A DNA stretch of 35,760 bases from Candidatus Komeilibacteria bacterium (lineage in GTDB: Bacteria; Patescibacteriota; Patescibacteriia; UBA1558; GWA2-36-10), in NCBI GenBank assembly GCA_018656655.1, contig JABHYW010000063.1, positions 1 to 35,760 of the forward strand. The letters are read 5' to 3'. Below the pieces are notes generated by a model. It was not told where the DNA came from. It did no database searches and saw only the letters and a program-made list of their open reading frames with translations. The stretch's first letter is position 1. Every line of letters starts with the position of its first letter. The position numbers and the translations under genes are program-made. This document shows, piece after piece, positions 2,170 to 14,333 of this stretch.

Positions 2170-3444
2170 ATGCCTAAATTAAAATGGACAACAGAAAAAA
2201 GAAAGATTAATGATTTAGTGCCTTTCGAAAAGAATCCACGAATTATTAATCCAAAACAATTAAAAGACTTAACCAAAAGTCTTAAAAAATTTAATTTAGT
2301 TGAGATACCTGCAATAGATGCGGATAATAAAATCTTAGCAGGTCATCAGCGTCTAAAAGTTCTTCAGCTTCTTGGTCGAGGTGATGAAATGATTGATTGC
2401 AGGATACCGAATCGTAAACTTACCAAGAAAGAATCTGAACAATACCTTATTTCAAGTAACGCCCTAGGTGGAGATTGGGATTTTGAAAAATTAAAATCCT
2501 TTGACCTTGATTTACTAACAGACATAGGCTTTGACCAAATTGAACTAGCAAAGATTTGGGATAATGAACTAGAGGTGCAAAATGAGGATTTTAACGTTGA
2601 AGAAGAAATTAAGAAGATTAAGAAACCCAAAACAAAATTAGGAGACATTATTCATCTTGGTTCACATAAATTACTTTGTGGTAGCTCTGCTGACCCAAAA
2701 AATCTTAAACGATTATTCGGAAAAGAAAAAGCCTCAATGATATATAGTGATCCGCCATACAATATAAACTTAGATTATTCAAAGGGCATTGGAGGAAAAC
2801 AAAGCTATGGAGGAACTGTTAATGATAATAGAAACGATAATGAATATAAAGAGTTTATTAAGAAAAGTCTTAAAACTGCATTGTTGGTAACAAAACCAGA
2901 CGTACATGTGTTCTATTGGTCTGATCAAACCTATATTTGGCTTATACAAGAGCTTTATAGAGAACTTGGGATAATAAACAAACGAGTATGCTTATGGATT
3001 AAAAACGGACAGAATCCTACCCCAGGAGTAGCATTTAATAAATGTTACGAGCCTTGTACTTATGGAATTAAGGGTAAACCATATATTGCCGAAAGCATTC
3101 AAAATCTTAATGAAGTTATGAACAAGGAGATAACAACCGGAAACAACTTACTTGAAGAAACACTTGATGAACTTGATGTATGGCTTGTTAAACGTCTTTC
3201 TCACAAGGATTATGAACATGCTACTAGTAAGCCACCAAAACTTCATGAAAAGGCAATACGTAGGTGTACAAAGCCTGGTGATATCATTCTTGATTCATTC
3301 TCTGGATCAGGAAGTACATTAATTGCTGGAGAGCAACTCAAAAGAAAGGTCTATGCTGTCGAACTAGAACCTATGTTTTGCGATATTACAATCAAAAGAT
3401 ATGAAAAATTAACAGGCAGAAAGGCAAGGGTGTCTCATGTCTAA
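2170..3444 (+). CDS. ParB/Srx-like domain fused to DNA (N4/N6) methyltransferase
   Basis: N-terminal ParB-like region (LVPFEKNPRIIN..ILAGHQRLKVLQLLG); MTase motifs SDPPYNINL and DSFSGSGSTLIAGEQLKRKVYAVELEP. Confidence 0.9.
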   Translation: MPKLKWTTEKRKINDLVPFEKNPRIINPKQLKDLTKSLKKFNLVEIPAIDADNKILAGHQRLKVLQLLGRGDEMIDCRIPNRKLTKKESEQYLISSNALGGDWDFEKLKSFDLDLLTDIGFDQIELAKIWDNELEVQNEDFNVEEEIKKIKKPKTKLGDIIHLGSHKLLCGSSADPKNLKRLFGKEKASMIYSDPPYNINLDYSKGIGGKQSYGGTVNDNRNDNEYKEFIKKSLKTALLVTKPDVHVFYWSDQTYIWLIQELYRELGIINKRVCLWIKNGQNPTPGVAFNKCYEPCTYGIKGKPYIAESIQNLNEVMNKEITTGNNLLEETLDELDVWLVKRLSHKDYEHATSKPPKLHEKAIRRCTKPGDIILDSFSGSGSTLIAGEQLKRKVYAVELEPMFCDITIKRYEKLTGRKARVSHV

Positions 3445-3856
3445 GAAAAATAAAATTCAAGATTCTTTTCTAGAAGAATTAAAAAAGATTCCTATAATAC
3501 AAGTAGCCTGTGAAAGAGTGGGTATTTCTCGTAACAGTATCTATAGGTGGAAGCGAGATGATAAAGATTTTTCTAAATTAATGGATAAAGCTTTAGCCGA
3601 GGGTGAAGAATTGGTAAATGATATGAGTGAGTCTCAGTTATTAACTCTTATTAAAGAAAAAAACTTTTCAGCCATAAGGTTTTGGCTTAATCACAGGAGT
3701 CCAAAATTTAAAGATAAGGTTGAAGTTACAACAAAGGTCGATATTAATGATGAGGAATTAACACAAGAACAACAAGATGTTGTACACAAAGCTCTTAGTC
3801 TTGCTTCAATTATAACAAACGTAAGCGATAAACAAGATGAAAAAACAAATAGTTAA
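3437..3856 (+). CDS. Phage terminase small-subunit-like HTH protein
   Basis: 139 aa; HTH-like VACERVGISRNSIYRWKRDDKDF; immediately upstream of and overlapping the TerL-like ORF. Confidence 0.65.
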   Translation: MSKKNKIQDSFLEELKKIPIIQVACERVGISRNSIYRWKRDDKDFSKLMDKALAEGEELVNDMSESQLLTLIKEKNFSAIRFWLNHRSPKFKDKVEVTTKVDINDEELTQEQQDVVHKALSLASIITNVSDKQDEKTNS

Positions 3857-5381
3857 AACCATACCTGAAGAGCTATTTAATCAGATGATTAAAGATCGGC
3901 AAATTAGAAGAGCCATAACCAAAGAAAGTTTCTTATATTTTTTTAACTTCTACTTTGCCCATTATGTTACACATCCAACCGCTGATTTTCAAAAAGAGAT
4001 TATTCACTCACTAGAACAAAGTGCCACGGAGAGTCTTTATATTGTAAGTTTTAGAGATTCTAGTAAATCAACGATGGCTGCTACTGCCTATCCTCTTTGG
4101 AGTATATTGGGGATACAAAAGAAAAAATATATTTTAATCTTTTGTAGAACTCAAGGCCAAGCTAAACAGGCCTTAAGGAATATTCGTGATGAAGCAGAAG
4201 ATAATGATTTACTTAAAAAAGACCTAGGACCTTTTAAAGAAATATCAGAAACTGGGAAAAATGGAGAATGGACATCAACTACCTTAGTGTTCTCTAGTAC
4301 AGGATCTAGGATAAAGGTAGCTTCAGTTGATGAGAGTATCCGTGGTTTAAGACATAAACAGTACCGACCTGATTTGATAATCGCAGATGATGTAGAAGAT
4401 ATTAATTCAACCAGAACTAAAGAAAGTAGAGATAAAACCTACAGGTGGCTTCGAGGCGACGTTATACCTGCTGGCGATAGTAATACACGTCTCATTGTTA
4501 TTGGTAACCTACTTCACGAGGATTCATTACTGATGCGGCTTAAAAGAGATATTGAAGAAAAAAGAGCCTTGGGTAAATTTATGGAATTTCCGCTTATTAC
4601 CGAATCAGGTAAATGTTTATGGCCAGGAAAATACCCTAACCAAAAAAGTATTGAGTTGCGTAAAAAACAAATCGGTAATGAGATTCAATGGCAAAGAGAA
4701 TTTTTACTTAATATTGTTCCAGATACTGATCAGGTAATTCACACCGAGTGGATCAAATATTATTCAGATCTTCCATTACAAGACAGGTCATTTGCTGGGG
4801 TCTGTATTGGAATTGATTTAGCCTTTTCTCTAAGAAATGGAGCAGATTATACTGCTTTGGTGAGTGCTTATATTTATTGGATTAAAAAAGAGATGTATAT
4901 CTATATTTTACCTAATCCAATAAATGAACAAATGGGTTCTCCTGAGTTAGTTAAAAGATGTATATCTATACATAGGCATTACACTAAAGAAAAAGCTTAT
5001 CCTAAATTTATAGTTGAAGAGGCAGGACAACAATTAAGTGTTATCCAACATTTAAAAGACGCCGGATTAAATGCAGGTGGTTTTAGTCCAGGTAGAATGG
5101 ATAAAAGAACTCGTCTAGCTTTGGCTGCACTTAAGATTAATTCTGGGCATGTTCTGTTTCCTAAAAAAGGTTGTGAAGATCTCATCAGACAACTAACGCA
5201 CTTTGGAGTTGAAAAGCACGATGATCTTTCTGATGCATTTTCAACTTTAATTTTGGGAATAACAGAATCTCCACCAAGAGGTAGAAGTTCTATTCAAGAT
5301 ATTATTCTAATAGATGAGTCAAATGATTCATCATGTATAGATATTGATGAATTTAGAGTCACTAGAGATACGAGATTTTAA
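3837..5381 (+). CDS. Phage terminase large-subunit-like protein (ATPase plus RNase H-like nuclease)
   Basis: ATPase region SFRDSSKSTMAATAYPLW, Walker B-like PDLIIADDVED, coupling-like LIVIGNLLHEDSLL, nuclease GIDLAFSLRNGADYTALV and HDDLSDAFS. Confidence 0.85.
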   Translation: MKKQIVKTIPEELFNQMIKDRQIRRAITKESFLYFFNFYFAHYVTHPTADFQKEIIHSLEQSATESLYIVSFRDSSKSTMAATAYPLWSILGIQKKKYILIFCRTQGQAKQALRNIRDEAEDNDLLKKDLGPFKEISETGKNGEWTSTTLVFSSTGSRIKVASVDESIRGLRHKQYRPDLIIADDVEDINSTRTKESRDKTYRWLRGDVIPAGDSNTRLIVIGNLLHEDSLLMRLKRDIEEKRALGKFMEFPLITESGKCLWPGKYPNQKSIELRKKQIGNEIQWQREFLLNIVPDTDQVIHTEWIKYYSDLPLQDRSFAGVCIGIDLAFSLRNGADYTALVSAYIYWIKKEMYIYILPNPINEQMGSPELVKRCISIHRHYTKEKAYPKFIVEEAGQQLSVIQHLKDAGLNAGGFSPGRMDKRTRLALAALKINSGHVLFPKKGCEDLIRQLTHFGVEKHDDLSDAFSTLILGITESPPRGRSSIQDIILIDESNDSSCIDIDEFRVTRDTRF

Positions 5382-5933: not shown

Positions 5934-6038
5934 ATAGGATAGGCTTTAATTATTAAACTGGTCGAGAAAACACAAAAGGCCCCCCGAGCCAGCTGACGAA
6001 TCCTTACGGAGACGCCACTACACCCTTTCGAGCATAGA

Positions 6039-6085
6039 CCTATCCTACAAGTACTGGTCGGAAGACCATTAATATGTAGGATAGG
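6039..6085. repeat. Long inverted repeat / hairpin with inner GNRA-capped stem
   Basis: CCTATCCTACA(6039-6049)...TGTAGGATAGG(6075-6085), enclosing TGGTC-GGAA-GACCA(6055-6068). Confidence 0.8.
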
Positions 6086-6203
6086 ATTTACGACCATATC
6101 TCGATAAATCAAGGGTTAGGTCATCAAATTACTATTAAATTGTTAACTAAATTATACATAATTTGTATATATTAGTCTATACATTATAACGCACATTTGG
6201 TGT

Positions 6204-6254
6204 TTTGCTAAGGAAAGTTGCCAACAAGTTGTCGACAGCTAAAAGCTTAGCAAA
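6204..6254. repeat. Inverted repeat TTTGCTAAG...CTTAGCAAA upstream of recombinase
   Basis: 9-bp perfect arms (6204-6212, 6246-6254) just before the serine recombinase start. Confidence 0.65.
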
Positions 6255-6282
6255 GGCTATAAAGTGTGTCATCAATTAATGT

Positions 6283-7593
6283 ATGGATATGTCACAACAA
6301 ACCAAGTTTGCAGTAGCTCCAGACGTTAAAATGAAGTACTGTCTATATGCTCGAAAAAGTACTGAATCAGACGAAAGACAGGCATTATCAATTGAATCTC
6401 AAGTTAAAGAAATGCTTCAAATTGCAGAGCGTGAAAAGCTAGATATAATTGATATTAGAAGAGAGTCTAAATCAGCTAAAGACTCTGATAAACGCCCTGT
6501 ATTTAAAGAATTAATTAATGACATATCAGATGAGAGATTTAATGCTATTCTCACATGGGCACCAGATAGACTATCTAGGAATGCAGGAGATTTAGGATCA
6601 CTTGTTGATCTAATGGATGCTAAAAAACTTCTTGGCATTCGTACATACGGACAAACTTTTAGTAACTCACCAAACGAAAAGTTCTTATTGATGATTCTTT
6701 GTTCTCAAGCCAAACTCGAAAATGATAATAGAGGTATAAATGTAAAACGTGGATTGCGAACACGATGCGAAATGGGACTCTGGCCTACATGTCCTCCAAC
6801 TGGATATTTTAAAGAAAAAAGAGTTGATCACAAAGGAGAGTGCCTAACTGATCCTGATAGAGCGCCCATAATAAAACAAATGTTTGAAAAAGTTGCTTAT
6901 GAAAAATGGTCGGGTCGAAAACTTTATCATTGGCTTAAGTTTGATTTAAATTTCAGAACTGCCCTAGGGAAAAAGCATTTAAGTCTTGGCAATATCTATC
7001 GAATGTTAGAAAATACTTTTTACTATGGCGCATTTGAATATCCACGAGGATCAGGTAATTGGTATCAAGGTAAGCATAGTCCAATTATTACTAAAGAGTT
7101 GTTTGATTTAGTACAGAAACAAGTTAAGAACTCTCAATTAGTTAGAAATGAAAATATTGAGTTTGCATTTACTAAAATTATGAAATGTGGATTATGTGGT
7201 TCAGGCATTTCAGCAACTGAAAAATTTAAAAAACTTAAAGACGGTAACCACAATAGACATGTGTATTATGGATGCACAAAAGCAAAAGATAAAAATTGTA
7301 AATGTGGGTATATAAATGAAATATCTTTAATTAAGCAGCTACAAAAGCATATTGATAAAATTGATATCAAAAAAATGCCTATAGAAAATAAAATTAAGTC
7401 TGAAATAAAACGTTTTAAAAAATTTCAAAGCATGGTGACAGGTAAGAATGATAATATCAACATAAACGATATTGATATAAAAAATTATGCCAAATTTTTA
7501 TTAAGGGAGGGTGGCATACAAGAGAAACGAGAAATAATGGCATGTTTTAAATCATCAATTATTATTAACAATAAAATAGCCTCACTGGACTAA
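6283..7593 (+). CDS. Large serine recombinase
   Basis: YARKSTESDERQALSIESQ N-terminal catalytic motif, APDRLSRNAGD, recombinase domain, zinc-ribbon KCGLCGSGISA...CTKAKDKNCKCG. Confidence 0.93.
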   Translation: MDMSQQTKFAVAPDVKMKYCLYARKSTESDERQALSIESQVKEMLQIAEREKLDIIDIRRESKSAKDSDKRPVFKELINDISDERFNAILTWAPDRLSRNAGDLGSLVDLMDAKKLLGIRTYGQTFSNSPNEKFLLMILCSQAKLENDNRGINVKRGLRTRCEMGLWPTCPPTGYFKEKRVDHKGECLTDPDRAPIIKQMFEKVAYEKWSGRKLYHWLKFDLNFRTALGKKHLSLGNIYRMLENTFYYGAFEYPRGSGNWYQGKHSPIITKELFDLVQKQVKNSQLVRNENIEFAFTKIMKCGLCGSGISATEKFKKLKDGNHNRHVYYGCTKAKDKNCKCGYINEISLIKQLQKHIDKIDIKKMPIENKIKSEIKRFKKFQSMVTGKNDNININDIDIKNYAKFLLREGGIQEKREIMACFKSSIIINNKIASLD

Positions 7594-7633
7594 GAAAAAC
7601 CCCATTTAATCATTTTCTATTTTCTTTCTAGTA

Positions 7634-7642
7634 TGCTATAAT
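7634..7642 (+). promoter_or_regulatory. Extended -10 promoter TGC-TATAAT immediately before the lexA-dam ORF
   Basis: -10 ends 6 nt before the ATG at 7649, implying a leaderless or near-leaderless mRNA. Confidence 0.6.
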
Positions 7643-7648
7643 TTTCAT

Positions 7649-9148
7649 ATGATAACCAAGAAACAAAATAAGGTACTAGCTTATATAAAATCATACATGG
7701 GAGATAAGGGTTACTCCCCATCGCTTGAGGACATAAGGAAACATTTTAAATTATCCTCTGTGTCTACTGCTCATCATTATATAAAAAAATTAGAGGAAAA
7801 CGGATATCTAGAGAAAGAAAATAATCATCCTAGATCTATACATCCTTCTGATGTGGGAATGACAAATATAAAAATAGTTGGTTCTATAACCGCAGGCCAA
7901 CCGATAGAAGCTATAGAATATAACTTTGGAACTATTGCAATACCAAACAGAGAATTAGATAATAATAGTAATTATTATGCTCTTAAGGTTTCTGGAGAAA
8001 GCATGATAGATGAAGGTATTTTTGATGGTGATCTAGTATTAATAAAAAGACAAGAGACAGCAGATGATGGGCAAACTGTAGTCGCTGTTATAGATGATAA
8101 TGAAGCTACACTAAAAAAAATATATCGAGAAAAAGGAAGAGTTAGATTACAGCCAGCAAATAAAACAATGCTACCTTTTTATAGAAAGGTAGTTGAAATA
8201 CGGGGGATTGTTGTAAAAATAATAAGAGAATTAGAGGATAATAATAGCTATAGTAAATTTATTGATATTATAAAAAATGAACCTATAACATTAAACTCTA
8301 CAAGAAAATCTACAACAGAAATTAATACTAAAGCCAAGCCCTTTGTGCAATGGGTTGGTGGTAAACGTGAAATGATAGCACAGTACAAGAAGTATATACC
8401 TAAAAAATTTAATAACTATTTTGAACCATTCTTAGGGGGCGGTGCTATGTTTTTTTATCTCCAGCCAAAACAAGCGGTATTAACAGATAATAATATAGAA
8501 TTAATAAAAACATATGAGGCTGTTAGAGATAATCCCGAGGGCGTAATAAATATTCTATTGGAATTAAAATCTAGACACTCCAAAGAATTTTATAGCATGG
8601 TAAGAAGTGTAGATAGAGGCATGGATATGTTTTTAGAGTTAGACAATACTGAAATAGCTGCTAGAATGATATTTCTTAATCAAACATGTTTCAATGGTCT
8701 ATACAGAGTAAATAAAAATGGACAGTTTAATGTACCTATAGGTAGTTCCCTAAATCGTTTGATATGTGATGAAAATGGTATAAGAAATACTAGCAAGTTA
8801 TTGCAAGATGTTATAATTAAATATTCAGATTTTGACGATACTCTATCAGATGCAAAGAAAGGAGATTTTATTTATCTTGATCCACCATATTATCCTGTCT
8901 CAGCCTTTTCTGATTTTACAAGATATACTAAAGAAAAATTTTATCAAGAAGATCAAATTAGACTTAAAAAAAAGATAGATAAATTAAATAAAATGGGTTG
9001 TAAAATAATGCTATCTAATTCAAATTGTGATTTTATAGAAAAATTATATTCAAATTATAAACAACACACTGTTTTATCTAGTAGGTCTTTGAACTGTAAA
9101 AAAGATAAACGAGGTAAAGTCACAGAATTACTCATTACAAACTACTAA
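7649..9148 (+). CDS. LexA-like S24 repressor fused to D12-class (Dam-type) DNA adenine methyltransferase
   Basis: LexA wHTH (KVLAYIKSYMGDKGYSPSLEDIRKHFKLSSVSTAHHYIKKLEENGYLEK), cleavage-site-like ITAGQPIEA, Ser motif VSGESMIDEGI, Lys motif EATLKKIY; then KPFVQWVGGKREMI, NYFEPFLGGGAMFF, FIYLDPPYYP. One continuous 499-codon ORF. Confidence 0.92.
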   Translation: MITKKQNKVLAYIKSYMGDKGYSPSLEDIRKHFKLSSVSTAHHYIKKLEENGYLEKENNHPRSIHPSDVGMTNIKIVGSITAGQPIEAIEYNFGTIAIPNRELDNNSNYYALKVSGESMIDEGIFDGDLVLIKRQETADDGQTVVAVIDDNEATLKKIYREKGRVRLQPANKTMLPFYRKVVEIRGIVVKIIRELEDNNSYSKFIDIIKNEPITLNSTRKSTTEINTKAKPFVQWVGGKREMIAQYKKYIPKKFNNYFEPFLGGGAMFFYLQPKQAVLTDNNIELIKTYEAVRDNPEGVINILLELKSRHSKEFYSMVRSVDRGMDMFLELDNTEIAARMIFLNQTCFNGLYRVNKNGQFNVPIGSSLNRLICDENGIRNTSKLLQDVIIKYSDFDDTLSDAKKGDFIYLDPPYYPVSAFSDFTRYTKEKFYQEDQIRLKKKIDKLNKMGCKIMLSNSNCDFIEKLYSNYKQHTVLSSRSLNCKKDKRGKVTELLITNY

Positions 9149-9150
9149 AT

Positions 9151-10212
9151 ATGAGATTTATAGGAAATAAAGAAAAATTGTTAGATGATATATATCAGGC
9201 TGTATCAGATAAGAACATAAGCAAGGGTGTCTTTTGTGATTTTTTTGCTGGCACTTCCAATGTGGGTAGATATTTTAAACAAAAAGGATTCAGAGTTATA
9301 TCATCAGATCTTTTGTATTTTTCTTATATTCTACAAAAAGCCTATATAATGAATAATGGCGAGCCAAAGTTTACAAAGTTAATTAAAGAAATAGGACATT
9401 CTAAAAAAAGGTTTTTTTCTTCATCTTTTGATTCAATCAGAGATCACTTAGATGATTTGAATGGAGTCGAAGGTTTTATTTATAAAAATTATACCGAAGA
9501 AGGAACGCGTGATAATACTCATGTGAGAAAATACTTTACTGCCGAAAATGGTAAGCATATAGATGCTGTTAGACAAAAAATTGAAGAATGGAAAAACAAT
9601 AAAATCATAACAACTAAGGAATATTTTGTTTTATTAGCCGCCCTTATAGAGAGCGTGCCATTTTATTCAAATATATCTGGTGTATATGGTGCTTTTTTAA
9701 AACAATATGACCCGCGAGCACTAAAAAAGCTCAAAATAAAACCAATGCAATTTTATGGTGGAGAAAAAGATCATAAAGTCTATAATGGTGATAGTATGAA
9801 GTTAATAGGAAAAGAAAGATTTGATATTTTATATATAGATCCTCCTTATAATAATAGACAATATGCACCTAATTATCATATATTAGAAACTATAGCAAAG
9901 TATGACTCCCCAGAAATAAAAGGTGTTAGTGGTATGAGAAATTATGAAAATCAAAAATCAGATTTTTGTAATAAAAATAATGCTTTACTAGCTTTAGAAA
10001 AGATAGCTAGCACCGCTAAATATAAGCATTTAATATTAAGCTATAATTCAGAAGGAATTATGGCAAAAGATGATATATTAGGTGTATTGAAAAAATTTGG
10101 AGAAGTAGAACTAAAGAATATAAATTATAGGAGGTTTAAAAGTAATAGTAATGGTAAATCAAAAGATAAAAAATTAATTCAAGAGCAATTATATTTATTG
10201 ACTAGCAAGTAA
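9151..10212 (+). CDS. D12-class DNA adenine methyltransferase (second MTase)
   Basis: RFIGNKEKLL, FCDFFAGTSNVGRYFKQKG, LYIDPPYNNRQYAPNYHILETIAKYD. Confidence 0.9.
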   Translation: MRFIGNKEKLLDDIYQAVSDKNISKGVFCDFFAGTSNVGRYFKQKGFRVISSDLLYFSYILQKAYIMNNGEPKFTKLIKEIGHSKKRFFSSSFDSIRDHLDDLNGVEGFIYKNYTEEGTRDNTHVRKYFTAENGKHIDAVRQKIEEWKNNKIITTKEYFVLLAALIESVPFYSNISGVYGAFLKQYDPRALKKLKIKPMQFYGGEKDHKVYNGDSMKLIGKERFDILYIDPPYNNRQYAPNYHILETIAKYDSPEIKGVSGMRNYENQKSDFCNKNNALLALEKIASTAKYKHLILSYNSEGIMAKDDILGVLKKFGEVELKNINYRRFKSNSNGKSKDKKLIQEQLYLLTSK

Positions 10213-11634
10213 TTTATCTATTACTACTTTAAAAATCTCTGGTGCGTTTGGTCCAAGTATCATCGCGCCTTTTTCGTTTAAATAAAATCCAATCTCTTTT
10301 TCTTCTATTGATTCTTTTTTATCACCAGCAATAACAACAGTTCTTACTATAGATTTTGGTTTATATGAAGGCTTAATCATTTTATCTTCTATATAATCAT
10401 AATTTTTGAGTTCAGCTATACCTTTCTTTCTAGTAGAGTATTTTTTACCTTCAACATTTATTATTTCTTTTCTATCTACATCGTAAATTATCAAATCTGG
10501 TAAATAAATAATAGCTTTTTTATTTCCAGCTTTATATTCTTCCTTTCTACCCTCTTGATATTTCTCTATAGCAACTGGTTTACCATCTGGGTATATAAAA
10601 TAACTACGTTCAGTGCCACCATGATTAGAATATACAATCAAACTATTGGTATATTCTAATAATGCCACATGCAAAAATATTGTACCTAATTTTTCCTGGG
10701 TTGTTTCATAATGCCAATAATTAGGTTTAGTATTTACTTTTGGCACAGTGAGTCCGGCTAGTTGTATATTTAATTTATTGGCAATCTGTATAAATTTATT
10801 ATCACGACCTACATGTTTTTGTTCTAAACCATGCCTAGTAATAATAATTGGTTTTTTCTTCTCCCATTTTCTAATACATTGAGCAATAATAGATAAAGCA
10901 CCTATATTAGGATCATAATCTAAACCTGTTTGGTTATATAACCTACCAGACACTTTTATAGCGTCAGACTCTACTATTATTTCTATCGGAACATTACCCT
11001 TGGGTGGTTTTCTCATGGTTTTTTTAAAATCAACCAATTCATCAATATTCTGGAATGGAACCATTAGCTTATCATCTATCTCTTTTCCAATAATTTCAAC
11101 CTCAATTGCTCTTAGCATTCGTGTGCCAAAGACATTTGTTGCTGTTGGCTTTTTGTTTTCAGGGGTTAATAGATTATATAGCATTATCTTTTTTATTCCA
11201 GGATAGAAAAAATCAACGTAGACAAATTTGCTACAACGTTGGTACACGCCGGTATTTCTAGACTCCGCATCAGTTGTTTTTGTTTCCTCAATTGCATACA
11301 GAGGAATATCGTTATTATTTGGTTTTTCTTTTTTAAGAAATATTAAAAAATCTACAAAGCTAGAATCACCACTTATGATACTAATAAAAATTCTCCGAAA
11401 GCCTTCACTTGATGCGCCCGTCACTTCGTATAACGAGGTAAACAAATTATTTTCTATGATTGGTAATATTTTAAGAGTATCTAGTTTAACTGAAAAATTA
11501 CCATCATCAGCTAATTTTTTTAGTATTGCCATTATAACCTCGTGTTTTGGCATTTCTTCAGTCAAAATCCAAAGATTGTTCATTTTGATATGGTTCATTA
11601 TTAATACGTAAATATATTTTATTAACCTAAACAT
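10195..11634 (-). CDS. Candidate type II restriction endonuclease; true start may be internal (MNNLWILTEE)
   Basis: PD-(D/E)xK-like LPDLIIYDVDRKEIINVEGKKYS; conserved-looking EETKTTDAESRNTGVYQRCSKF; convergent with and 18-bp 3' overlap with the adjacent methyltransferase. Confidence 0.65.
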   Translation of the reverse strand: MFRLIKYIYVLIMNHIKMNNLWILTEEMPKHEVIMAILKKLADDGNFSVKLDTLKILPIIENNLFTSLYEVTGASSEGFRRIFISIISGDSSFVDFLIFLKKEKPNNNDIPLYAIEETKTTDAESRNTGVYQRCSKFVYVDFFYPGIKKIMLYNLLTPENKKPTATNVFGTRMLRAIEVEIIGKEIDDKLMVPFQNIDELVDFKKTMRKPPKGNVPIEIIVESDAIKVSGRLYNQTGLDYDPNIGALSIIAQCIRKWEKKKPIIITRHGLEQKHVGRDNKFIQIANKLNIQLAGLTVPKVNTKPNYWHYETTQEKLGTIFLHVALLEYTNSLIVYSNHGGTERSYFIYPDGKPVAIEKYQEGRKEEYKAGNKKAIIYLPDLIIYDVDRKEIINVEGKKYSTRKKGIAELKNYDYIEDKMIKPSYKPKSIVRTVVIAGDKKESIEEKEIGFYLNEKGAMILGPNAPEIFKVVIDKLLASQ

Positions 11635-11699: not shown

Positions 11700-11987
11700 T
11701 TAAAAAGGAATATCATCTGGGTTGATTTCTTCTTCGTCTTCACCAACACTCTCATCAACGCTGTTAGTTTCTTGATAATCTGCTTCTTCTATATTATTTA
11801 TACTCTCAAGCATTGATTTAACGCTAATTTCTTCTTCTTCGGTAATATCGCTTCCAAACTCAGCATCTATTTTCTTTTCATTCTTTATTTCCTTAATCAT
11901 TTCTATATAATCTTTAGTGGAAAAAGTTTTTTCATCAACCTTAACAATGATTTCCCCATCTTTATTTTTTTCAAATCTTAACTTCAT
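11700..11987 (-). CDS. Small acidic protein with SSB-like C-terminal tail (DDIPF)
   Basis: 95 aa, C-terminus ...EDEEEINPDDIPF; lies 6 nt downstream of the PHP-ATPase ORF on the same strand. Confidence 0.75.
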   Translation of the reverse strand: MKLRFEKNKDGEIIVKVDEKTFSTKDYIEMIKEIKNEKKIDAEFGSDITEEEEISVKSMLESINNIEEADYQETNSVDESVGEDEEEINPDDIPF

Positions 11988-11993
11988 ATGCTA

Positions 11994-14333
11994 TTATTTA
12001 AAATTTTTTAAATTATATTTTTTAAATCTTTTTTTAATTGAGGGCTTACCTCCGTCTGTTATCTTCGCTATATGATCAACAACATTGATATTATTAATCT
12101 TGCCTTCAAGTGGATTTGAGCTTATTTTTATTTTGCCATTATTATTTTCACAAAGTATTACATTTTGAGCATCACCAGCCATTGGTATTGTGGCATTATG
12201 AGAAACAAAAATAATTTGTTTCTTATTCTTCATCTTCTTAATAGATTTTACAAGCCCTTCATTAATATAACTTGTTGCGAGATTATCCTCTGGCTGATCT
12301 ATAATTAGAGGTGCACGATCTTCCTCAAAATTTAATATTAATTCTAAAATAATTGAGGTTTTAAGACCAGGACTCAAACCATCAAAATCCCTTCCCTTTG
12401 GATCTTTAATTTTATAACTAATTTTATCATTTTCAACAAAATCTGCGTAAATTTTTTCTTTAATTAACTTATATGTAGCACCACTTCCTTTTTGGCTTCC
12501 CTTAAGAATGCTACTAAAATTACCCCTAAACAGATTCTCGGGTAAAATATTATCAAATTCTTTAATCCCTTTTGCATTTAATAAAAGTTTATTAAGTTCA
12601 TCTCTTAATATTTCCTTGTTTAACTCAAATTTATTTTCTATAGATAATGTATGATTATTAATTTCAACTTTATTTGATTCGGCTTCTATTGAGTACTCCG
12701 AGATTTGTTTTAATGTTTCTTCAAATTTTAATAGATAATCATAATATCCTTTCATCTTATTTATAAGTGAATCAAAATATTGTTTTTTTTCCTGTGATTC
12801 TCCTTCTCTCTCTTGAAGCTCTTTATCTACAGCAAGCTTCTTATCTTGAATTGTTTTCTTTATGTTAATTTCAAGAACAGAATAATTTCTCATTTCCTGG
12901 AGCTCATCTTTCAGATCCTGAATGATTTTTTTATTATGTTTAACAAATGGATTATTAGTTAATTTTGTATCTAAACTATTTAAAAATTCCATATCTTCTT
13001 CTTCGTCAAAATCACTATAATCTGTATATTCTACAGAGCTTATGGTAGCCAAAAATTTTTTAAGTATATTCTCATTTACTTTCTCAGATACTATTAAAGA
13101 TGCTAATACGGGGATTCTTTTTATCTCTGCCTCTAACGTTTCCATTTTCTCCACCGCATTAAATAAAGAATCTAAATGTTCTTTTAACTTTTCTAGACCC
13201 TTCTCAATTTTTTTCCTTGCAACATTATTTTCAGGGAGCATTTTTTCTATAATTGGTATATCATTAATTTTTTTATCTTCCCTCGTTACACTTATTATAA
13301 AATTTTGTTCTATAAAGTGTGGATCCAAACCATCTGGATAGTTTATCTTTATACGATTAACTTCGTATTCTTTATATTTACTATCCTCAAAACTAGATTC
13401 TGTTATTTTTCTATATAAAGAATCAGCAAGCAAAGTCTTGCCACTGGATGATTCACCAATTATCACATTTAATCCCGGAGTCAAATTAACATTTATATCA
13501 ATCTTATCACCTTGCAATTGTATACCTTTAATTGATTCTTGCCATTTTTTAGGTTTTTCATGGCTATACTCTAATCGTGAACTATCTGATAATGATAATC
13601 TTAATCCTCCAAATGTTGGTGTTGCAAATATCCAAGTAGGTATAAACCCATATTCTTCTTTGCTCTTTGGTTTTGGATACACAGAAGGATTGTAGTTGTC
13701 TGTGCAAGTTATTAGATTAACAAATTCCTGAACACCAAGTCTTTCAAGATATTCTTTCGTTTTCTCGGTCTTTTTATCGGATCTTGATGTGAACCCATCA
13801 AAAAAATTGTAATAGATACTTCTCTCCATGGCATTATCGAACTCCTTACCTTTAGGCATGGCCTCATCAAAAGTCGAATGAGTTTGTCCGCCATGTGGCA
13901 ATAGAATAAAATCATATTCATCAAATACTTCTATTATCTGTTGAATGATTGGAATATTCTTATCTGTTCGTGATGGTGTTTTATTTGGATATAAAATATC
14001 AAGCTTAGAATTTATATCTTTTATACTCTTTGAATCAATTTCCTTACCATCAAAATTAAAATATATATGACAATGATAAGCTTTTGTAGGTTCGTCTTGA
14101 TGCGTCTGTATATGAAGTTCAACTCCAAGTATTAGATTATCTCCTATACTTTTTGCGGCTTTCAGGTAAACTTTCTCGTTTATTGTGTTATGATCCGTGA
14201 GGGAAATTAAAAAATCATCGCCTTGAGCTTTTTCTCTGACATTCTTAATTAGTGTATCCAAGTCATAATTTTCATTAAGGCTGCTTGGGTCACCAGATGT
14301 GTGTATATGTAAGTCTAAATAAACTGGATTCAT
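11994..14333 (-). CDS. PHP-domain phosphoesterase fused to SMC/ABC-like ATPase (resembles TrlF-type AAA ATPases)
   Basis: N-terminal PHP motifs LDLHIHTSGD, ISLTDHNTI, LLPHGGQTH; Walker A VIIGESSSGKTLLADSL; coiled coil; signature GLSPGLKTSIILELI; Walker B APLIIDQPEDNL; H-loop FVSHNATIP. Confidence 0.85.
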   Translation of the reverse strand: MNPVYLDLHIHTSGDPSSLNENYDLDTLIKNVREKAQGDDFLISLTDHNTINEKVYLKAAKSIGDNLILGVELHIQTHQDEPTKAYHCHIYFNFDGKEIDSKSIKDINSKLDILYPNKTPSRTDKNIPIIQQIIEVFDEYDFILLPHGGQTHSTFDEAMPKGKEFDNAMERSIYYNFFDGFTSRSDKKTEKTKEYLERLGVQEFVNLITCTDNYNPSVYPKPKSKEEYGFIPTWIFATPTFGGLRLSLSDSSRLEYSHEKPKKWQESIKGIQLQGDKIDINVNLTPGLNVIIGESSSGKTLLADSLYRKITESSFEDSKYKEYEVNRIKINYPDGLDPHFIEQNFIISVTREDKKINDIPIIEKMLPENNVARKKIEKGLEKLKEHLDSLFNAVEKMETLEAEIKRIPVLASLIVSEKVNENILKKFLATISSVEYTDYSDFDEEEDMEFLNSLDTKLTNNPFVKHNKKIIQDLKDELQEMRNYSVLEINIKKTIQDKKLAVDKELQEREGESQEKKQYFDSLINKMKGYYDYLLKFEETLKQISEYSIEAESNKVEINNHTLSIENKFELNKEILRDELNKLLLNAKGIKEFDNILPENLFRGNFSSILKGSQKGSGATYKLIKEKIYADFVENDKISYKIKDPKGRDFDGLSPGLKTSIILELILNFEEDRAPLIIDQPEDNLATSYINEGLVKSIKKMKNKKQIIFVSHNATIPMAGDAQNVILCENNNGKIKISSNPLEGKINNINVVDHIAKITDGGKPSIKKRFKKYNLKNFK

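Follow-up and report, generated by a model that had tools for sequence, protein, structure and literature searches.

Within the 35,760 nucleotides of DNA analysed here (the window), the first methyltransferase (M1) of a type II restriction-modification (R-M) system carries a full LexA controller. This enzyme probably represses its own synthesis and would be SOS-inducible, its derepression upon damage then raising the ratio of modification to restriction (M:R). As addiction modules, R-M systems can be lethal to the host if methylation falls behind, and their cutting is known to induce SOS. With LexA as part of the modification enzyme, the loop between cutting and SOS would be closed directly, which would solve the long-standing problem of how M:R balance is restored. 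If true, it is a built-in safety valve against self-restriction, and it also ties the barrier posed by restriction to the SOS state. For gene exchange in Patescibacteria, whose genomes are tiny, control of restriction by DNA damage may be of consequence.

A LexA and a Dam methyltransferase in one reading frame

A reading of the window from its sequence only had proposed that one 499-codon frame encodes a complete LexA and a complete D12 methyltransferase, and Pfam, NCBIfam and relatives of known structure agree (Table 1). Matches to LexA_DNA_bind (residues 2-62, E 1e-13), Peptidase_S24 (76-189, E 2e-27) and MethyltransfD12 (235-475, E 4e-56) each exceed the Pfam gathering cut-off, and the S24 plus D12 architecture which that reading had put forward for a domain search is thereby found. 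The NCBIfam lexA equivalog TIGR00498 covers residues 2-195 with 174 bits (cut-off 111) and the dam model TIGR00571 residues 230-498 with 263 bits (cut-off 115). The nearest solved relatives in the PDB are Thermotoga maritima LexA (3k2z) for residues 2-195 and DpnM (2dpm, E 1e-70) for residues 229-499. The fusion thus satisfies the profile and sequence definitions of the LexA and Dam families alike.

The Ala-Gly site, serine and lysine that had been picked out for self-cleavage align with those of LexA as Ala82-Gly83, Ser118 and Lys156, and all three features are kept in 82/82 fused-clade sequences. On the methyltransferase side D411, P413, Y414, G237 and G263 are invariant in the alignment. 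Two AlphaFold runs give both halves fair to good confidence (LexA in one run, the methyltransferase in the other), and the S24 part of the model superimposes on RecA-bound LexA (8gms) at 2.0 Å over 124 columns. The linker between the halves, earlier estimated at roughly 40 residues, is present as a stretch of low pLDDT but is about 35 residues long (~193-228). Derivation of the fusion from a phage or a plasmid was considered and rejected, as no phage or plasmid record spans at least 80% of it; viral contigs gave one locus, and that was Dam-only.

Table 1. Coordinates of the LexA-Dam fusion, its predicted operator and the adjoining genes
Feature	Position	Strand	Basis or remark
Serine recombinase (large integrase type)	6283..7593	+	PF00239/PF07508/PF13408; phrog_95 integrase
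Predicted operator for the LexA part: TTCTA-N6-TTCTA, a direct repeat with a period of 11 bp	7615..7630	+	only exact copy in window
TATAAT, -10-like hexamer	7637..7642	+	sequence; straight after operator
LexA-Dam fusion, M1 of the R-M system	7649..9148	+	single unbroken ORF, 499 aa
LexA winged-helix DNA-binding domain, residues 2-62	7652..7834	+	PF01726
Recognition helix of LexA part, around residues 38-50			
S24 autoprotease domain, residues 76-189	7874..8215	+	PF00717
Ala82-Gly83, predicted self-cleavage site	7892..7897	+	alignment with LexA
Ser118 codon (S24 domain)	8000-8002	+	
Lys156 codon (S24 domain)	8114-8116	+	
Linker, residues 193-228	8225..8332	+	low confidence over most of its length in either model
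Complete D12/Dam-family adenine methyltransferase domain, residues 229-499 (EPFLGGG, DPPY)	8333..9145	+	PF02086, TIGR00571
M2, second D12 adenine methyltransferase	9151..10212	+	PF02086; PADLOC MTase_II
R, restriction endonuclease, convergent	10195..11634	-	PADLOC REase_II PDLC03445, E 4e-52

The restriction-modification locus and its relatives

As judged from the gene sequences and their order, the fusion is M1 of a type II R-M system composed of LexA-Dam, M2 and a convergent, overlapping R. The ATG of M2 is 2 bp after the M1 stop codon, and R, the cognate endonuclease beside the two methyltransferases, overlaps the end of M2 by 18 bp. Neither R nor M2 has a sequence relative in the PDB.

The M1-M2/R set recurs in the same convergent order in two of 380 sampled Patescibacteria genomes, G143 and G361. 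Identity to the window's proteins (BLASTP) is 59-61% for the Dam part, 57% for M2 and 47% for R, and on these alignments the true M1 orthologues are in these two genomes. Their M1, however, has a Cro/C1-type HTH (HTH_26) at its N-terminus in the position of LexA, and a 22-bp palindrome common to both genomes, TATATCAACTnnAGTTGATATA, is just upstream of both M1 genes and absent from the window. Within one orthologous R-M system, the N-terminal controller and the DNA site differ together. In G143, the gene for a 277-aa S24-family protein (L135:2515-3348, minus strand) is within a few kb of this Cro-HTH system. The sole fused Dam homologue found here besides that of the window is in Ca. Buchananbacteria (L014), where the contig stops before M2 and R would be reached.

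M2 (51-52%) and R on Bartonella and Psychrobacter plasmids match those of the window at about 50% identity, but the M1 there is a different D12 enzyme, 25% identical and without a fused controller. It was rejected as an unfused orthologue, given that M2 and R are at about 50%; the disparity suggests that M1 may have been replaced in the history of the system. In the records NZ_CP104892.1 and NZ_CP012536.1, M2 and R are ~50% identical and M1, another D12 enzyme, 25%.

The serine recombinase adjoining the R-M genes is probably a mobility gene outside the mechanism, and a search for attachment-site repeats around it gave nothing convincing. Just upstream of it on the minus strand is a LOOT RNA (RF03000, 64.9 bits; 5995-6122). 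Further left are a phage-like pair at 2170-5381 on the plus strand (a CcrM-type methyltransferase protein and a terminase large subunit) and a reverse-transcriptase domain at 25-627; this part of the window may be a prophage or satellite remnant. On the other side, an acidic ORF of 95 aa (11700-11987) separates R from a gene for a 779-aa protein (11994-14333, minus strand) whose N-terminus, judged by eye, looks PHP-like and whose C-terminal part resembles the AAA ATPase of TrlF/Ppl. The latter is probably another defence gene beside the R-M system.

Predicted operator, recognition helix and recurrence of the fusion

The direct repeat ahead of the fusion is predicted to be an operator on the M promoter, matched to the recognition helix of the LexA part. 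An operator had been anticipated near 7620-7650, where the repeat indeed is, but the other region then suggested, 6120-6280, holds no such repeat even with one mismatch allowed. The start codon of the fusion follows 6 nt after TATAAT, a gap so short that the transcript may be leaderless, and a generic promoter scan misses this hexamer owing to its weak -35. The operator repeat was not found at the R promoter of the window, and the R promoters of 48 systems have it in 5/48, which is background.

Repeats of the same 11-bp period (TTCTA-N6-TTCTA, TTCGG-N6-TTCGG or TTCGA-N6-TTCGA) are upstream of 90 of the 99 LexA or LexA-methyltransferase genes; stretches drawn at random from these loci give 7.6 ± 2.9. 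Among LexA-domain columns, recognition-helix position 43 has the highest mutual information on repeat type, and it fits the operator in 91/91: E, Q or D with TTCGG (42/42), and H, Y, F or A with TTCTA or TTCGA (49/49). A tree of the peptidase domain only has 15 operator changes. On its well-supported branches three independent changes of operator and helix can be counted and all three agree, though the number is small. Operators that are legible in the DNA and change in step with a single helix residue provide ready-made tests and orthogonal LexA-operator pairs.

The sequence-only reading knew of no characterised protein of this architecture, and a search of the open-access literature (not a complete one) found no report of a LexA-methyltransferase fusion. 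The fusion is nevertheless no isolated oddity. Eighty distinct LexA-methyltransferase fusions were found, mostly in Patescibacteria. The species-genome scan that yielded them used the fused LexA as query, and its set therefore leans to relatives of that domain; a fairer count comes from 287 evenly drawn Patescibacteria genomes, 19 of which have long LexA ORFs. LexA domains in the best 80 loci of the scan are mostly 50-64% identical, and the complete ORFs among these loci usually run to about 500-650 aa. By their C-terminal sequence the 80 fusions form seven clusters: a 420-aa N6_N4 type (42 fusions), C5-cytosine (19), beta N6/N4 (13), Dam (2), two groups of other D12 enzymes (3 together) and an Eco57I type (1). 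In the tree the methyltransferase-linked LexAs are one clade of 85 rows, with support of 100/98, apart from the sampled host LexAs, and a tree of the S24 part needs at least 9 changes of methyltransferase class.

A convergent ORF meets 62 of the 68 fusions with readable downstream DNA, 37 of the 62 with an identical 4-bp overlap. The convergent genes that were tested include MvaI/BcnI, Bsp6I, TaqI, BsaWI-type and PD-(D/E)XK endonucleases, with a few lacking a match. A small gene for a Cro-type HTH protein lies close to R, and in its orientation, in 16 of the 47 systems that could be read. Recurrence of the fusion over many unrelated methyltransferases and restriction families makes it look selected rather than accidental. 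On balance, the fusions seem to represent a widespread class of R-M regulation, found chiefly in Patescibacteria, where a LexA cassette, mobile and linked to its operator, sits on nearly every type II methyltransferase class and the antitoxin enzyme would sense DNA breaks and selectively raise modification over restriction.

Unfused members of the LexA clade also occur. At L033:5105-7311 a separate LexA is 4 bp ahead of a C5 methyltransferase, which may continue into a second methyltransferase domain where the contig ends. Another, at L110:1-3055, converges with the gene of an AlwI-family endonuclease on one side and diverges on the other from that of a nucleotidyltransferase with weak likeness to SMODS (CBASS-like); its control may extend beyond R-M genes. 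LexA-methyltransferase loci in metagenome-assembled genomes labelled as other than Patescibacteria (L085, L086, L048, Omnitrophota; L050, Deltaproteobacteria; L034, Armatimonadetes, cut by a contig end) reflect either transfer or mis-binning.

Proposed regulation and known systems

LexA self-cleaves at Ala-Gly once it is activated by RecA-ssDNA, and the genome from which the window comes (a 0.78 Mb assembly, 84% complete) encodes RecA. The course of repression, RecA-triggered cleavage, derepression and effect on R that we infer is as follows. A LexA-M1 dimer on the TTCTA repeat, just upstream of the -10, would repress the M1-M2 operon and thereby hold the methyltransferase low yet sufficient. 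Chromosome breaks, for instance where R cuts under-methylated DNA, would lead to RecA-ssDNA filaments and these to cleavage at Ala82-Gly83. The 82-aa winged helix would then depart, vacating the operator, with the S24-methyltransferase remainder staying active. M1 and M2 would rise and R, whose promoter lacks the operator, would not; strong M transcription into the convergent overlapping R may damp it further. This damage-triggered rise in M:R would rescue the cell from self-restriction. That repression is tied to a cleavable LexA, as was proposed from the sequence, is well supported by the conserved site and dyad and by an operator on the fusion's own promoter which tracks the recognition helix. 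The accompanying proposal that cleavage splits DNA binding from catalysis needs modification: just the winged helix would be lost, the S24 C-terminal domain remaining on the methyltransferase, and what would be expected is less a catalytic switch than release of the M1-M2 operon from repression.

The main uncertainty is whether cleavage occurs, as dimerisation could be reason enough to retain the S24 fold. The LexA part might bind the operator and dimerise via S24 as a plain autorepressor, with cleavage absent or irrelevant. Autorepression through an N-terminal HTH is a known mode, and in G143 and G361 M1 appears to fulfil this role through a Cro-type HTH which, having no S24 domain, cannot self-cleave. 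A mere role in dimerisation, however, would not be expected to keep the Ala-Gly and the dyad in 82/82 sequences; their integrity favours cleavage, and the plain autorepressor is accordingly a possible but unlikely reading. Less likely by far is the emphasis of the sequence-only reading, in which cleavage mainly alters methylation activity or targeting (free versus operator-tethered enzyme) as a damage-dependent epigenetic switch. Cleavage would indeed part the winged helix from the methyltransferase, and host LexA and the fusion do coexist. However, the fusion enzyme is in an R-M operon, where the task is protection, and its operator is essentially confined to its own promoter, which makes targeted methylation elsewhere improbable.

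This confinement is seen in the host genome, which has a separate 200-aa LexA, 45% identical to the fused one. TTCGG-N6-TTCGG has one copy there, before host lexA, and TTCTA-N6-TTCTANTA has three sites, of which the fusion's own is the only one outside ftsH/hisS coding sequence (gene names by eye from translations; exact matches, genome 84% complete). With one promoter-placed site of each type, the two LexAs of one cell appear to be separately addressed. In the same exact-match search, the one promoter-placed operator of the fusion's type does not amount to a multi-gene SOS regulon. It is thus very improbable that the fusion acts on host genes as an additional SOS repressor, in competition with host LexA or in its place: about half of the sampled genomes bearing a fusion have no separate LexA match at E <= 1e-25, but half-sites (TTCTA versus TTCGG) and recognition helices differ, with one promoter-placed site each in the host genome. 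An assembly chimera or a frameshift joining two genes, suspected at 8250-8340, is rejected as having a negligible chance, and homologues are not always separate ORFs as had been feared, since Ca. Buchananbacteria has an end-to-end homologue, 64% identical, in an independent assembly, one of 80 distinct fusions.

Taken as a damage-inducible autorepressor, the fusion would combine the action of an autorepressing M enzyme with that of a LexA. Modification enzymes of the Ecl18kI/SsoII type repress their own promoter through an N-terminal HTH, and R-M imbalance induces SOS (PMC3874152). The likeness to them is in the N-terminal DNA-binding domain (here the LexA winged helix), the predicted operator over the M promoter (the repeat immediately before TATAAT) and an M that is both antitoxin and regulator. 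The HTH here, in contrast, is part of a full LexA with self-cleavage features, its putative operator is a direct repeat and it would be damage-sensitive; moreover the fusions are on many methyltransferase classes, and R is mostly convergent rather than divergent. C-protein R-M systems likewise have a dedicated HTH controller, whereas the LexA controller is part of M, with its site on the M promoter only.

With S24 repressors of the LexA, UmuD and phage CI type the fusion shares the winged helix, the S24 domain with its Ala-Gly, Ser and Lys, and an operator on its own promoter, but it has a C-terminal methyltransferase and a private operator, and it falls in a clade separate from the host LexAs sampled. 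The alpha-proteobacterial LexA box, GTTC-N7-GTTC, is similar in layout to the repeat upstream of the fusions (PMC3323433). Fold and motifs are those of Dam and DpnM (M.DpnII), and a hairpin, NGLYRVN..QFNVP, resembles the recognition hairpin of DpnM; the differences are the LexA in front, and partners that are a second D12 methyltransferase and an unrelated endonuclease. In SOS-regulated toxin-antitoxin systems (symE/symR, tisB/istR and yafN-yafO) the repressor is host LexA and its target the toxin or the operon. They too are addiction-type modules under LexA control, but here LexA is built into the antitoxin enzyme, and it is the antitoxin that it would repress.
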